Below, one piece after another: positions 3,859-39,659 of a stretch of 64,000 nt of DNA. How positions within the stretch are numbered: position 1 is the stretch's first letter; the number at the start of each line of letters is the position of its first letter. The translations under genes and the position numbers were made by a program. Origin of the DNA: Rhizobium sp. SEMIA4064 (GTDB lineage: Bacteria > Pseudomonadota > Alphaproteobacteria > Rhizobiales > Rhizobiaceae); assembly GCF_003025035.1 (NCBI RefSeq), contig NZ_PYJN01000001.1:187501-251500 (forward strand), in the 5' to 3' direction. The notes under the pieces are model-generated. The model did no database searches. It saw nothing but the letters and a program-made list of their open reading frames with translations, and was not told the origin of the DNA.

Positions 3859-4260
3859 ATGATCAGGATATTCCTTGGTGCGCTGGCGCTGGCCGCCGCT
3901 TCCGTGACCACAGCAAACGCCCATGGCGACTCGGCCAAACTCGTCTACGAGCATGCGCTGCCGAACGTTCCCGGCAAGAGTATCAAAGCCGTGCTCGTCG
4001 AATATGAACCGGGCGGCACTTCGCCTGCTCATACGCATCCAGCCTCCGCTTTCATCTACGCAACGGTCCTTGAGGGATCGATCCGAAGCAAGGTCAATGA
4101 CGGACCGGTAAAGGTCTATCGTGCCGGCGAAAGCTTTTCAGAGTTCCCGGGCGATCATCACGGTATCAGCGAGAATGGTAGCAAGACGAAGCCTGCTCGC
4201 CTGCTTGCCGTGTTCGTTGTCGACACCAACGAGACCAACCTGACGACCTACGAGAAATGA
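3859..4260 (+). CDS. Secreted cupin-domain protein
   Basis: A 133-residue protein with a signal peptide (MIRIFLGALALAAASVTTANA) followed by one RmlC-type cupin fold. The metal-binding pattern is visible as HTHPASAFIYATVLEG (two histidines of motif 1) and GDHHGISENGS (motif 2). Conserved GGTSPAH precedes motif 1. It probably acts in the periplasm and may bind a metal or small organic ligand. It follows the SDR gene and may be co-transcribed with it. The biochemical role is not known from sequence. Confidence 0.85.
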   Translation: MIRIFLGALALAAASVTTANAHGDSAKLVYEHALPNVPGKSIKAVLVEYEPGGTSPAHTHPASAFIYATVLEGSIRSKVNDGPVKVYRAGESFSEFPGDHHGISENGSKTKPARLLAVFVVDTNETNLTTYEK

Positions 4261-35792: not shown

Positions 35793-36224
35793 CTAGAGAT
35801 GCTTGGCGTTTTCCAGGATGCGCCTGATATATTCGAGCAGCAGTTCGCGCTCGAAGGTGCGGAAGCCTCGAAACAGCTCCTTGTCCGCAGCCATAGCGGC
35901 TTGCACGGCTTCCGTCTGCATGGCGGCAGCTTTGCCGGTCAGGAACACCAGTTGCGCGCGTTTGTCGGATGGATGCGGCCGGCGCTCCACCAGCCCATCG
36001 CGTTCCATGCGCGACAGGGTATTGGCCATCGTCGCCTGCTCGATGTCGACGCGCTCCAGCAATTGCTTCTGGGTCAGCCCGTCTTCGGACCACAATTCCA
36101 GCAGGATCGGAAATTGGCCGGGGGAAAAACCAAGCCCCGCCGCCCGTTGTTGCAACGAGCGGGCAAATCCCTTCGCCATCTGATTGGCAAGGTAGGCCGC
36201 AGAGTCCATGCGATTAAATCCCAT
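35793..36224 (-). CDS. MarR-family transcriptional regulator
   Basis: About 143 residues. The winged helix is clear: GFSPGQFPILLELWSEDGLT, then QKQLLERVDIEQATMANTLS, then RMERDGLVERRPHPSDKRAQ and the wing strand LVFLTGKAA. ATG 36224 or ATG 36209 (MDSAAYLA) may be the start; the frame upstream overlaps the small-RNA region and lacks homology. It lies next to the sRNA and polA, as does the corresponding MarR-type gene in Sinorhizobium. Targets unknown. Confidence 0.9.
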   Translation of the reverse strand: MGFNRMDSAAYLANQMAKGFARSLQQRAAGLGFSPGQFPILLELWSEDGLTQKQLLERVDIEQATMANTLSRMERDGLVERRPHPSDKRAQLVFLTGKAAAMQTEAVQAAMAADKELFRGFRTFERELLLEYIRRILENAKHL

Positions 36225-36345
36225 GATTGCAAGTATGCCCGTATTTTGGAGCAAAACAATCATCAAATCTTGGGTGAAATGTGTCTGATGCAGGCCAAAT
36301 TCTGGTGATATTTGGCGGGTTGTTTTACTGACTATGTGAATGAAA

Positions 36346-36498
36346 TCTAATAGAAAAGCCGCCATGGTCTGGAGGTGGGACCATGGCGGCTTCAAAGGGG
36401 GGACAAAGGCCCGGAGAGGGGGATAGGCCTTTGTCCAAGTCTGACATGGCGGGGGACAGGCCGGTTGCCAGACCCTCGGCGTAATCAATCGCCGGTGA
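36346..36498 (-). ncRNA. ecpR1: EcpR1-type trans-acting small RNA (candidate)
   Basis: Minus-strand RNA of about 150 bases with three stem-loops. SL1 pairs GTCTGGCA with TGTCAGAC (36439-36473, one mismatch). SL2 pairs GGACAAAGGCC with GGCCTTTGTCC (36401-36436) and has a C-rich loop, TATCCCCCTCTCCG. SL3 is a terminator of 14 bp, AAGCCGCCATGGTC with GACCATGGCGGCTT (36356-36392), with loop CCACCTCCA and a TTTTC tail. C-rich loops can pair with ribosome sites. From memory, the rhizobial sRNA EcpR1, which modulates dnaA and gcrA mRNAs, lies between polA and a regulator gene, the same setting as here. The 5' end is inferred from the promoter. Confidence 0.7.
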
Positions 36499-36503
36499 GT
36501 ATG

Positions 36504-36532
36504 AAATGAGGCTCTAAATATGGTTTTTCAAG
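36504..36532 (-). promoter_or_regulatory. RpoH-like promoter of the small RNA
   Basis: On the minus strand CTTGAA (36532-36527) is followed after 15 bases by CCTCATTT (36511-36504), resembling the alphaproteobacterial RpoH pattern CTTGAA-N15/17-CCATNT. It would start transcription near 36498. Stress control of the sRNA would follow. Confidence 0.5.
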
Positions 36533-36656
36533 GGAATCCGCAGATTAGATTGATTAAAAATTGGTAACGTTTGAGTGAGAAATTTAGCCTGTCCGCAGAC
36601 CGCTTGATTGGAACTTTATATGGACGTTGGAGGTGCGCCACGCTATCCATGCTTCC

Positions 36657-39600
36657 ATGAAAAAAGGTGATCATCTCTTCCTCGTCGACGGCTCCGGTTT
36701 CATTTTCCGGGCCTTTCATGCCCTGCCGCCGCTGACGCGCAAATCCGATGGATTACCGGTCGGCGCCGTCTCCGGTTTCTGCAATATGCTGTGGAAGCTG
36801 CTGACCTCGGCGCGCGATACCTCGGTCGGCGTTACGCCGACACACTTTGCCGTCATCTTTGACTATTCCTCGAAGACATTCCGCAAGGATATCTACGACG
36901 CCTACAAGGCAAACCGCTCGGCACCGCCGGAGGAGCTGATCCCGCAGTTCGGGCTCATCCGCCAGGCGACGCGCGCCTTCAACCTGCCTTGCATCGAGAC
37001 CGACGGCTTCGAGGCGGACGACATCATCGCCACCTACGCCCGCCAAGCCGAGGCGGCCGGCGCCGACGTCACCATCATTTCCTCCGACAAGGATCTGATG
37101 CAGCTCGTCACCCCCATGGTCCACATGTATGACAGCATGAAGGACAAGCAGATCGGCATCCCCGATGTCATCGAGAAGTGGGGCGTGCCGCCGGAAAAGA
37201 TGATCGACCTGCAGGCCATGACCGGCGATTCCGTCGACAACGTGCCCGGCATTCCCGGCATCGGCCCGAAGACGGCGGCGCAGCTTCTGGAAGAGTTCGG
37301 CGATCTCGACACGCTGCTTGCCCGCGCCGGCGAAATCAAGCAGCAGAAGCGCCGTGAAAACATCGTCGCCAATGCCGAGCTGGCCCGAATTTCCCGGCAG
37401 TTGGTGACGCTCAGGACCGATGTGCCGCTGGAGCTGCCGCTCGATGATTTGGTGCTGGAATCCCAGGACGGCCCGAAACTGATCGGCTTCCTGAAGGCGA
37501 TGGAGTTCACCTCGCTCACGCGCCGTGTCGCCGATGCCTGCGATTGCGATGCGGCTGCGATCGAACCATCCGAGGTCAAGGTCGAGCGGGGCGACACTGC
37601 CCATGGCCCCGACCTCGATGTCGCTAAAAATGTCGATCTTGTTGCTGGCGGCGAGGTGGCTGCCGAAGGTGCCTCCGTGCCGGCGCCGGTGGTCAAGGCG
37701 CGTATGGCGTCTGAAAGTGCCTCAGAGCCCCGCGAACTCGCCAAGGCACGGGCGGCAAGCTTTGCCACCGCGCCGATCGATCATTCCACCTATGTCACCA
37801 TCCGCGACGTCGCTACTCTGGACCAGTGGATAGCGAACGCGCGCGAAACCGGCATCGTCGCCTTCGATACGGAGACGACGTCGCTCGACGCCATGCAGGC
37901 CGAAATCGTCGGTTTTTCGCTGGCGATCGCCGATAATCGCAACGATCCTTCCGGTACGGTCATCCGCGCCGCTTACGTGCCGCTCGGCCACAAGAACGGC
38001 GTCGGCGATCTGCTCGGCGGCGGATTGGTGGATAATCAGATCTCGTTGCGCGATGCGCTTCCGCGGCTGAAGAATCTGCTTGAAGACACCTCCGTCCTCA
38101 AGATCGCGCAGAACCTGAAATACGACTACCTGCTGATGAAGCGCTATGGCATCGAGCTCAAGGCCTTCGACGACACGATGCTTCTGTCCTACGTGCTCGA
38201 TGGTGGCGCCAATGCCACGCATGGCATGGATAGCCTGTCGGAGCGCTGGCTCGGCCACAAGCCGATCGCCTACAAGGATGTCACCGGCAGCGGCAGATCC
38301 AACATCACCTTCGATCTCGTCGATATCGACCGGGCCACGGCCTACGCCGCAGAAGATGCCGATGTGACGCTGCGGCTCTGGCTGGTGCTGAAGCCGCGGC
38401 TGTCCGCCGAAAAGCTCACCAGCGTCTATGAGCGTCTGGAACGGCCGCTGGTGCCGGTTCTCGCCCATATGGAGGAGCGCGGCATGACCATCGACCGGCA
38501 AATCCTGTCGCGCCTTTCCGGCGAGCTGGCGCAGGGTGCCGCCGCCCTCGAGGATGAGATTTACACGTTGGCCGGCGAGCGCTTCAACATCGGTTCGCCG
38601 AAACAGCTCGGCGACATTCTCTTCGGCAAGATGGGCCTAGCCGGCGGCAACAAAACCAAGACCGGGCAATGGTCGACCTCGGCGCAAGTGCTGGAAGACA
38701 TGGCGGCCGCCGGCTTCGAACTGCCGCGCAAGATCGTCGACTGGCGCCAGCTCACCAAGCTGAAATCCACCTATACCGACGCGCTGCCGGGCTATGTCCA
38801 TCCCGAGACCAAACGGGTCCATACCTCCTATTCGCTGGCCTCGACCACGACCGGGCGCTTGTCCTCCTCCGAGCCGAACCTGCAGAATATTCCGGTTCGC
38901 ACGGCCGAAGGTCGCAAGATCCGCACGGCTTTCATTTCGACGCCAGGTCACAAGCTGATCTCGGCCGACTATAGTCAGATCGAACTGCGCGTGCTGGCGC
39001 ATGTCGCCAATATCCCGCAACTCGAACAGGCCTTCGCCGACGGCGTCGATATTCACGCCATGACGGCCTCGGAAATGTTCAGCGTGCCGATCGAGGGCAT
39101 GCCGAGCGAAGTGCGCCGCCGCGCCAAGGCGATCAATTTCGGCATCATCTACGGCATTTCCGCCTTCGGCCTCGCCAACCAATTGTCGATCGAACGTTCG
39201 GAAGCCGGCGATTACATCAAGCGGTATTTCGAACGCTTCCCCGGCATCCGCGATTATATGGAAAGCACCAAGGCGGCAGCGCGCGACAAGGGCTATGTCG
39301 AGACCATCTTCGGCCGCCGCGTGCATTTTCCGGAAATCCGCTCCTCCAATCCGTCCGTGCGCGCCTTCAACGAACGCGCCTCGATCAATGCGCCGATCCA
39401 GGGTTCAGCGGCCGACGTCATCCGCCGCGCCATGATCAAGATGGAGCCGGCACTTGCGGCCGCCGGCCTCGACGATCGCGTGCGCATGCTGCTGCAGGTG
39501 CATGACGAACTGATCTTCGAAGTCGAAGACGCCGATGTCGAGCGTTCGACGCCGATCATCGTCTCGGTCATGGAAAATGCCGCCATGCCGGCGGTCGATA

Positions 39601-39659
39601 TGTCCGTGCCGTTGAAGGTCGACGCGCGCGCGGCTCACAATTGGGACGAAGCGCATTGA
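36657..39659 (+). CDS. polA: DNA polymerase I
   Basis: A 1000-residue three-domain polymerase. Residues 1-290 are the 5'-3' exonuclease (DGSGFIFRAFH, ETDGFEADDIIATYA, GDSVDNVPGIPGIGPKTA). The 3'-5' proofreading domain is intact, with Exo I FDTETTSLD, Exo II LKYDYLLMKRYG and Exo III YAAEDADVT. The polymerase domain has SADYSQIELRVLAH (motif A), RRRAKAINFGIIYGIS (motif B) and LQVHDELIFE (motif C). An Ala/Glu/Val-rich linker of roughly 70 residues between the two exonuclease domains explains the length excess over E. coli (928). ATG 36657 begins the family homology; GTG 36633 is an in-frame option without better support. Confidence 0.97.
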   Translation: MKKGDHLFLVDGSGFIFRAFHALPPLTRKSDGLPVGAVSGFCNMLWKLLTSARDTSVGVTPTHFAVIFDYSSKTFRKDIYDAYKANRSAPPEELIPQFGLIRQATRAFNLPCIETDGFEADDIIATYARQAEAAGADVTIISSDKDLMQLVTPMVHMYDSMKDKQIGIPDVIEKWGVPPEKMIDLQAMTGDSVDNVPGIPGIGPKTAAQLLEEFGDLDTLLARAGEIKQQKRRENIVANAELARISRQLVTLRTDVPLELPLDDLVLESQDGPKLIGFLKAMEFTSLTRRVADACDCDAAAIEPSEVKVERGDTAHGPDLDVAKNVDLVAGGEVAAEGASVPAPVVKARMASESASEPRELAKARAASFATAPIDHSTYVTIRDVATLDQWIANARETGIVAFDTETTSLDAMQAEIVGFSLAIADNRNDPSGTVIRAAYVPLGHKNGVGDLLGGGLVDNQISLRDALPRLKNLLEDTSVLKIAQNLKYDYLLMKRYGIELKAFDDTMLLSYVLDGGANATHGMDSLSERWLGHKPIAYKDVTGSGRSNITFDLVDIDRATAYAAEDADVTLRLWLVLKPRLSAEKLTSVYERLERPLVPVLAHMEERGMTIDRQILSRLSGELAQGAAALEDEIYTLAGERFNIGSPKQLGDILFGKMGLAGGNKTKTGQWSTSAQVLEDMAAAGFELPRKIVDWRQLTKLKSTYTDALPGYVHPETKRVHTSYSLASTTTGRLSSSEPNLQNIPVRTAEGRKIRTAFISTPGHKLISADYSQIELRVLAHVANIPQLEQAFADGVDIHAMTASEMFSVPIEGMPSEVRRRAKAINFGIIYGISAFGLANQLSIERSEAGDYIKRYFERFPGIRDYMESTKAAARDKGYVETIFGRRVHFPEIRSSNPSVRAFNERASINAPIQGSAADVIRRAMIKMEPALAAAGLDDRVRMLLQVHDELIFEVEDADVERSTPIIVSVMENAAMPAVDMSVPLKVDARAAHNWDEAH

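Follow-up and report, generated by a model that had tools for sequence, protein, structure and literature searches.

The region between a marR gene and polA in Rhizobium sp. SEMIA4064 raises the question of whether it encodes a small RNA (sRNA) and, if so, which one. The window examined here is a 64,000-nucleotide stretch of DNA, and a sequence-only reading of it had described an EcpR1-like cell-cycle sRNA on the minus strand. Our analysis supports an sRNA of the trans type between marR and polA that stands alone and has its own intrinsic terminator. On sequence comparison, we consider it close to certain that this locus truly encodes a small regulatory RNA and that the RNA is the catalogued, already known rhizobial αr7 (Smr7C/sra03/SmelC023).

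Identity and genomic setting

When the full window is scanned with Rfam, the ar7 model (RF02342) matches positions 36353–36497 of the minus strand. The match spans the full model (positions 1–145 of 145), with a score of 119.4 bits (cut-off 60; E = 7.4e-23). When positions 36300–36640 were scanned permissively at E ≤ 10, ar7 was the sole family to exceed its own cut-off. A standard family scan is thus sufficient to identify αr7. The transcript is predicted to be ∼144 nt long, running from 36497 to 36354. The coordinates of the locus are collected in Table 1.

Table 1. Features of the αr7 locus and its neighbors
Feature	Positions	Strand	Basis
MarR-type regulator gene, downstream of αr7	35793..36224	− (αr7 strand)	Pfam MarR 1.3e-15
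αr7 sRNA gene (RF02342), orthologue of S. meliloti Smr7C/sra03/SmelC023	36353..36497	−	Rfam; covariation (80 loci including the window's)
Intrinsic terminator: hairpin with a 14-bp stem and an additional G-U pair, loop CCACCUCCA, then UUUU	36354..36393	−	MFE; 10/11 pairs changed on both sides among relatives
Hairpin 2, loop AUCCCCCUCUCC at 36424–36413	36401..36436	−	MFE; 8/9 main-helix pairs changed on both sides among relatives
Hairpin 1, loop CUGUCCCCC at 36459–36451	36437..36475	−	MFE; stem covaries
Small variable 5′ hairpin	36477..36494	−	MFE; missing from 80-locus consensus structure
Promoter: CTTGAA 36532–36527, N15, CCTCATTT 36511–36504; 6 nt from there to 36497	36504..36532	−	Sequence; conserved in relatives
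polA, divergent from αr7; listed ORF begins at TTG	36627..39659	+	Pfam DNA_pol_A 1.7e-154

The neighborhood is also that of αr7. The divergent polA ORF lies next to the RNA, as is characteristic of the family, although the true polA start may be further inside the listed frame. On the other side, the terminator ends ∼129 nt ahead of the start of marR, which is encoded on the same strand. The polA/MarR setting has been described for the S. meliloti RNAs sra03 (PMC2245857), SmrC7 (PMC2780559; PMC2573895) and SmelC023 (PMC3927594), three names that are equated in PMC2873474. For sra03, the flanks are given as polA and SMc02851, and the RNA as ∼120 nt with three hairpins (PMC2245857). Beyond the full-length covariance match, the window RNA shares with this family (S. 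meliloti Smr7C = sra03 = SmelC023 = sm13; R. etli ReC06) its hairpins, C-rich loops, terminator, polA/MarR flanks and RpoH/σ70-type promoter, whereas stem and 5′ hairpin sequences differ between genomes.

As the sequence-only reading had stated, the minus strand has no complete protein gene ahead of the terminator. A mechanical ORF listing does contain a TTG frame that starts at 36488 and crosses αr7 into marR. However, the marR frame extends over the entire RNA, allowing for 20 nt of leeway, at just 6 of the 22 loci where the two are linked, and we therefore take the frame through αr7 to be a product of chance.

A related family, αr14/NfeR1 (RF02344), resembles αr7 in having three hairpins, C-rich loops and variable stems (PMC7143759). 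Its model scores 42.9 bits at 36353–36477 of the minus strand (E = 7.8e-7) versus a cut-off of 58.8, and the family differs further in the CCUCCUCCC-type loops seen in relatives. Three separate αr14 matches above cut-off are present in this genome. With a limit of E ≤ 0.01, αr14 likewise matched 4 of 20 other αr7 loci, each time under the cut-off. We also observed weak second αr7 matches that fall on αr14 genes at two loci (L106 and L107, with two copies each) and one that partly overlaps αr14 at another (L108).

Secondary structure and conservation

Three stable stem-loops had been noticed on the minus strand, the last a 14-bp terminator, and folding recovers all of them together with a small 5′ hairpin. 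Positions 36340–36500 of this strand fold at −72.8 kcal/mol, compared with an average of −45 (sd 3.65) among 200 shuffled sequences, none of which folds as well (z = −7.6). The two C-rich loops that had been pointed out, CUGUCCCCC and AUCCCCCUCUCC, are both present in this fold. A pattern built on the two loops matches the window once, and 100 shuffles gave no match.

To define the distribution of the RNA, 121 genomes of the family were sampled. These yielded 104 loci, 80 over the ar7 cut-off and 24 under it, with a second weak match in four genomes. At E ≤ 0.001 ar7 is found in 100 of the 121 genomes, and in 80 it exceeds the cut-off. Under stricter filters, an order-wide sample gave ar7 in 6 of 199 genomes, all from the window's own family. 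At least 118 stretches of a named collection carry the two-loop pattern. The 80 matches listed come from Rhizobium, Sinorhizobium/Ensifer, Agrobacterium, Mesorhizobium, Shinella and a few differently labelled metagenome bins, and Rhizobium mayense is the closest named relative among them (90.3% over 3.87 kb). When ∼1–1.5 kb on each side of the 104 loci was inspected, a divergent upstream polA was seen in 86 (69/80 over and 17/24 under the cut-off) and a downstream MarR gene like that of the window in 22 (20/80 and 2/24).

To assess covariation, the 80 loci above cut-off, the window's included, were put into one plain alignment. The consensus holds 29 pairs, and in 25 of these both partners differ in at least one sequence while still pairing; 96.8% of cells are paired. 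None of 500 shuffles scores as high on all five covariation measures, and sliding the partners leaves only 5–13 pairs. Hairpins 1 and 2 and the terminator are therefore strongly supported by covariation relative to both shuffled and slid controls, and the expected conservation of the three stems in related genomes is borne out.

The loops behave differently from the stems on which they sit. Loop 1 carries GUCCCCCG, which does not change in any of the 80 rows even though the stems do, and which is found in 96 of the 104 loci. The loop 2 sequence CCCCCTCTCC is found in 79. The locus thus has the conserved loops, covarying stems and terminator typical of αr7. Conserved loops on covarying stems were described earlier for 29 relatives, as was the variability of the 5′ domain (PMC3927594). 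Separately, one locus (L020) has a second, weak αr7-like match (positions 1230–1372, 34.8 bits) between the αr7 gene and polA, just upstream of αr7, which is possibly a tandem copy.

EcpR1 is encoded elsewhere in this genome

The name EcpR1 does not hold for this locus. Within 36300–36640, the EcpR1 family model (RF02500) has no match at E ≤ 10; the covariance search that had been suggested against the EcpR1 and αr families places the RNA in αr7 and not in EcpR1. The genuine ecpR1 of this genome is on another contig, at C5:259229–259338 (positions 4230–4339 of L110), where RF02500 scores 106.6 bits. A genome search for the EcpR1 loop UCCGCCGCAUCU leads to the same place. Its neighbors there are pleD and rpmG (ribosomal protein L33), as named from their translations. 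The RF02500 match on C5 and the ar7 match in the window indicate that both RNAs occur in this genome, in different places.

The S. meliloti EcpR1 (RF02500; SmelC291 = sra33 = SmrC10) lies between divK-pleD and rpmG, and its loop UCCGCCGCAUCU pairs with gcrA and dnaA (PMC4414408). Both it and αr7 are rhizobial sRNAs that combine a conserved loop with a terminator. EcpR1 differs in its pleD/rpmG locus, in the UCCGCCGCAUCU loop, in having two hairpins and in possessing its own copy in this genome. The window locus, by comparison, lies between marR and polA and displays the loops CUGUCCCCC and AUCCCCCUCUCC. EcpR1 membership is thus rejected. The polA/MarR setting that had been likened to that of ecpR1 belongs instead to sra03/SmrC7/SmelC023, and the sequence-only reading appears to have merged two RNAs.

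This genome's gcrA leader carries ATGCGGCGGA, the complement of the EcpR1 loop. Judging from this leader, the known EcpR1 circuit, which belongs to the C5 locus, looks intact here.

Promoter and regulation

The promoter that had been proposed, CTTGAA-N15-CCTCATTT, is present as written. It is RpoH-like, at the right distance from the predicted RNA start, and conserved in relatives. If a 17-nt spacing is assumed, the −10 element of the window is TCATTT (36509–36504). The corresponding motif of relatives is CCTTGAA-NN-GCCACNTT-N7-CCAAAT or close variants (equivalent to a CTTGAA-N17-CCAAAT-like promoter). CTTGA[AT] occurs within 60 nt upstream in 90 of 104 loci, and in 65 it starts 35 nt before the model start. 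The fuller motif CTTGAW-N16-18-YMANNT is found within 60 nt upstream in 53/80 loci over the cut-off and 4/24 under it, versus 0/1120 and 0/336 control windows, respectively.

Published predictions for this promoter diverge. The RpoH promoters of R. etli follow cTTGaa-N16-CgATaT (PMC4167512), and both RpoD and RpoH1/2 motifs have been predicted for SmelC023 (PMC7143759). In contrast, the smr genes were predicted to have σ70 promoters only, with no reliable alternative-sigma site reported (del Val 2007; PMC2780559), and promoter prediction for sra03 is reported to have given none (Ulve 2007; PMC2245857). A further caution is that σ70 and RpoH motifs overlap, such that many RpoH predictions may be false (PMC3616915).

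Transcription and RACE-mapped 5′ ends have been published for αr7 relatives. In S. meliloti, SmrC7 is described as an autonomous transcription unit with a primary RNA of 148–150 nt and a processed form of 106 nt, and its level rises ∼13-fold in nodules (PMC2780559). ReC06 is the R. etli relative of SmelC023 (PMC3927594), and it is raised by heat shock (PMC4167512). The conservation of the motif, the published RpoH predictions and the heat response of ReC06, weighed against the contrary predictions, make heat control of the window αr7 likely.

Several other features were observed upstream of αr7 genes. The spacer between the −35 and −10 elements holds the conserved GCCACNTT in relatives, with the version ACCATATT in the window (36517–36524, minus strand), which is unusual for a spacer. 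TTGTAAT is present further upstream in many loci. CcrM-type sites (GANTC) occur within −45 to +5 in 39 of 80 loci, compared with 115 of 1200 control windows. When these 39 sites were mapped relative to the −35 element, 32 were found to share one place (CTTGAATC or CTTGATTC, mostly CTTGAATC), and 28 of the 32 belong to loci with one type of hairpin 2. Common descent may therefore explain the GANTC excess.

Candidate targets and loop pairing

A cell-cycle role had been proposed, along with dnaA and gcrA as objects of target comparison. Pairing was evaluated at the starts of gcrA and zapA in 30 genomes and of dnaA in 29 of the 30, one locus (L308, genome G064) being dropped for having no start. 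Duplex energies were ranked against a background of 398/399 predicted genes with predicted starts, from this genome only and amounting to about a tenth of it. No conserved αr7 site was supported at any of the three genes in these 29–30 genomes, and neither the cell-cycle role nor the two named targets gain support.

Of the three, dnaA gave the most striking single value. In this genome, GGCGGGGGA, a 9-nt complement of loop 1, stands ahead of the third in-frame dnaA ATG, and the duplex energy is in the background's best 0.8%. The two upstream starts are ordinary, with 46% of the background as good or better. Moreover, the later ATG is missing in one genome (G054), and GGCGGGGG is found in 4 of 30 dnaA upstream stretches (one of which, L314, is shortened by a contig end). 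As an αr7 target dnaA is thus rejected, since it stands out only at an internal ATG that some genomes lack. The choice of dnaA start bears on any sRNA target claim. In the dnaA locus of this genome (L295), in-frame upstream ATGs, which are common in relatives, were noted, and the later ATG is preceded by GGCGGGGGAAAAAGGAG.

For gcrA, pairing with loop 1 is in the best 7% of the background in this genome (−19.8) and reaches −20.4 in a genome of the same genus (G029). Energies span −6.5 to −20.4 over the 30 genomes and are weak in many, and gcrA is rejected on this wide range and on its modest rank here. Pairing of sra03 with the 5′ region of the smc03977-zapA operon had been predicted, with speculation about a cell-division target (Ulve 2007; PMC2245857). 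At zapA's own start, as distinct from that of the upstream SMc03977, 30% of the background equals or surpasses the loop 1 energy in this genome, and zapA is rejected as well.

Genome-wide counts were similarly unrevealing. Exact 10-nt complements numbered 6 versus 6 for a reversed-pattern control with loop 1, and 6 versus 3 with loop 2 (the gene itself counted), which is not clearly higher. On inspection, none of the ten complements besides αr7 itself is a convincing ribosome-binding site. At three places (L348, L349 and L350), GGAGAGGGGG lies within palindrome-like CCCCG...GGGGAGAGGG stretches that resemble dispersed repeats.

The loops had also been credited with an anti-ribosome-site character, and this description holds only in part. 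Per 8 nt, hexamers complementary to loop 1 number 6 at ribosome-binding positions versus 1.7–1.8 elsewhere in the same genes, and those complementary to loop 2 number 13 versus 2.9–4.0. However, shuffled loops are as high at ribosome-binding positions in 93 of 200 cases for loop 1 and 143 of 200 for loop 2, giving no excess over composition in the 398 genes. The terminator loop does better than both (11 of 200 shuffles as high). The anti-ribosome-site wording is therefore weaker than it looks, because loops 1 and 2 perform no better than shuffled loops.

Possible modes of action

Most likely, αr7 is a stress-activated, trans-acting RNA that acts via its C-rich loops. In such a scheme, σ70 and/or RpoH holoenzymes would initiate at ∼36497 during stress or within the host, yielding an RNA of ∼144 nt that would end at the hairpin spanning 36393–36354. 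Two rigid hairpins would present the conserved loops, GUCCCCC and AUCCCCCUCUCC, which would pair with G-rich stretches of putative target mRNAs and thereby alter their translation or stability. We lean toward trans-acting base pairing through these loops, with some reservation.

The main rival explanation is that the conserved loops bind a protein, either as a decoy or with a chaperone as partner, rather than mRNAs. The invariance of loop 1 in a changing stem is arguably stricter than generic anti-ribosome-site pairing would need, and the failure of both loops to surpass shuffled versions at ribosome-binding positions is consistent with this explanation. Against this, a multi-target seed would likewise be invariant, and the null loop result covers 398 genes with predicted starts, about a tenth of the genome. 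We know of no αr7-binding protein, which also counts against it. In S. meliloti, Hfq co-immunoprecipitates are reported to give no SmrC7 signal, and the authors consider binding to be absent or weak (PMC2848018), a result that favors the protein-binding explanation. On balance, protein binding seems unlikely, even though it deserves more weight than any other alternative. A related proposal, which we hold more doubtful, is that αr7 is not a generic anti-ribosome-site regulator at all. Loop 1, which is invariant, and loop 2, which is strongly conserved, would then be devoted to a conserved protein partner or to a handful of fixed targets. A dedicated stress promoter would control the RNA, and the conserved spacer motif of this promoter (GCCACNTT in relatives) may bind a specific regulator.

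Two further explanations would deprive αr7 of a separate identity. Were it a leader or an attenuator for marR, which lies downstream, the shared strand, the ∼129 nt between terminator and marR start, and the marR frame that is open through the RNA here would be readily understood. Yet the RNA persists across loci of which only about one in five (22/104) has a window-like MarR gene downstream, and the published description as an autonomous unit (PMC2780559) also speaks against a leader, which makes it highly improbable. Were it EcpR1 or an EcpR1 paralogue repressing dnaA and gcrA via a GC-rich loop, one would expect the general design that the two RNAs indeed share (stem-loops, a C-rich loop and a terminator), and the GGCGGGGGA complement at dnaA and the gcrA ranking would have an explanation. 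The lack of an RF02500 match, the true ecpR1 elsewhere, the dissimilar loops, the ordinary upstream dnaA starts, the later ATG absent from G054 and the variable gcrA energies leave this idea scarcely credible.

Implications

Base pairing by αr7 through its C-rich loops remains the favored model, and the correct name redirects follow-up that would otherwise be aimed at the wrong RNA. αr7 is widely conserved in rhizobia, and published data show induction in nodules and, for a relative, by heat. The near-fixed loops and promoter across the loci examined make αr7 function testable.
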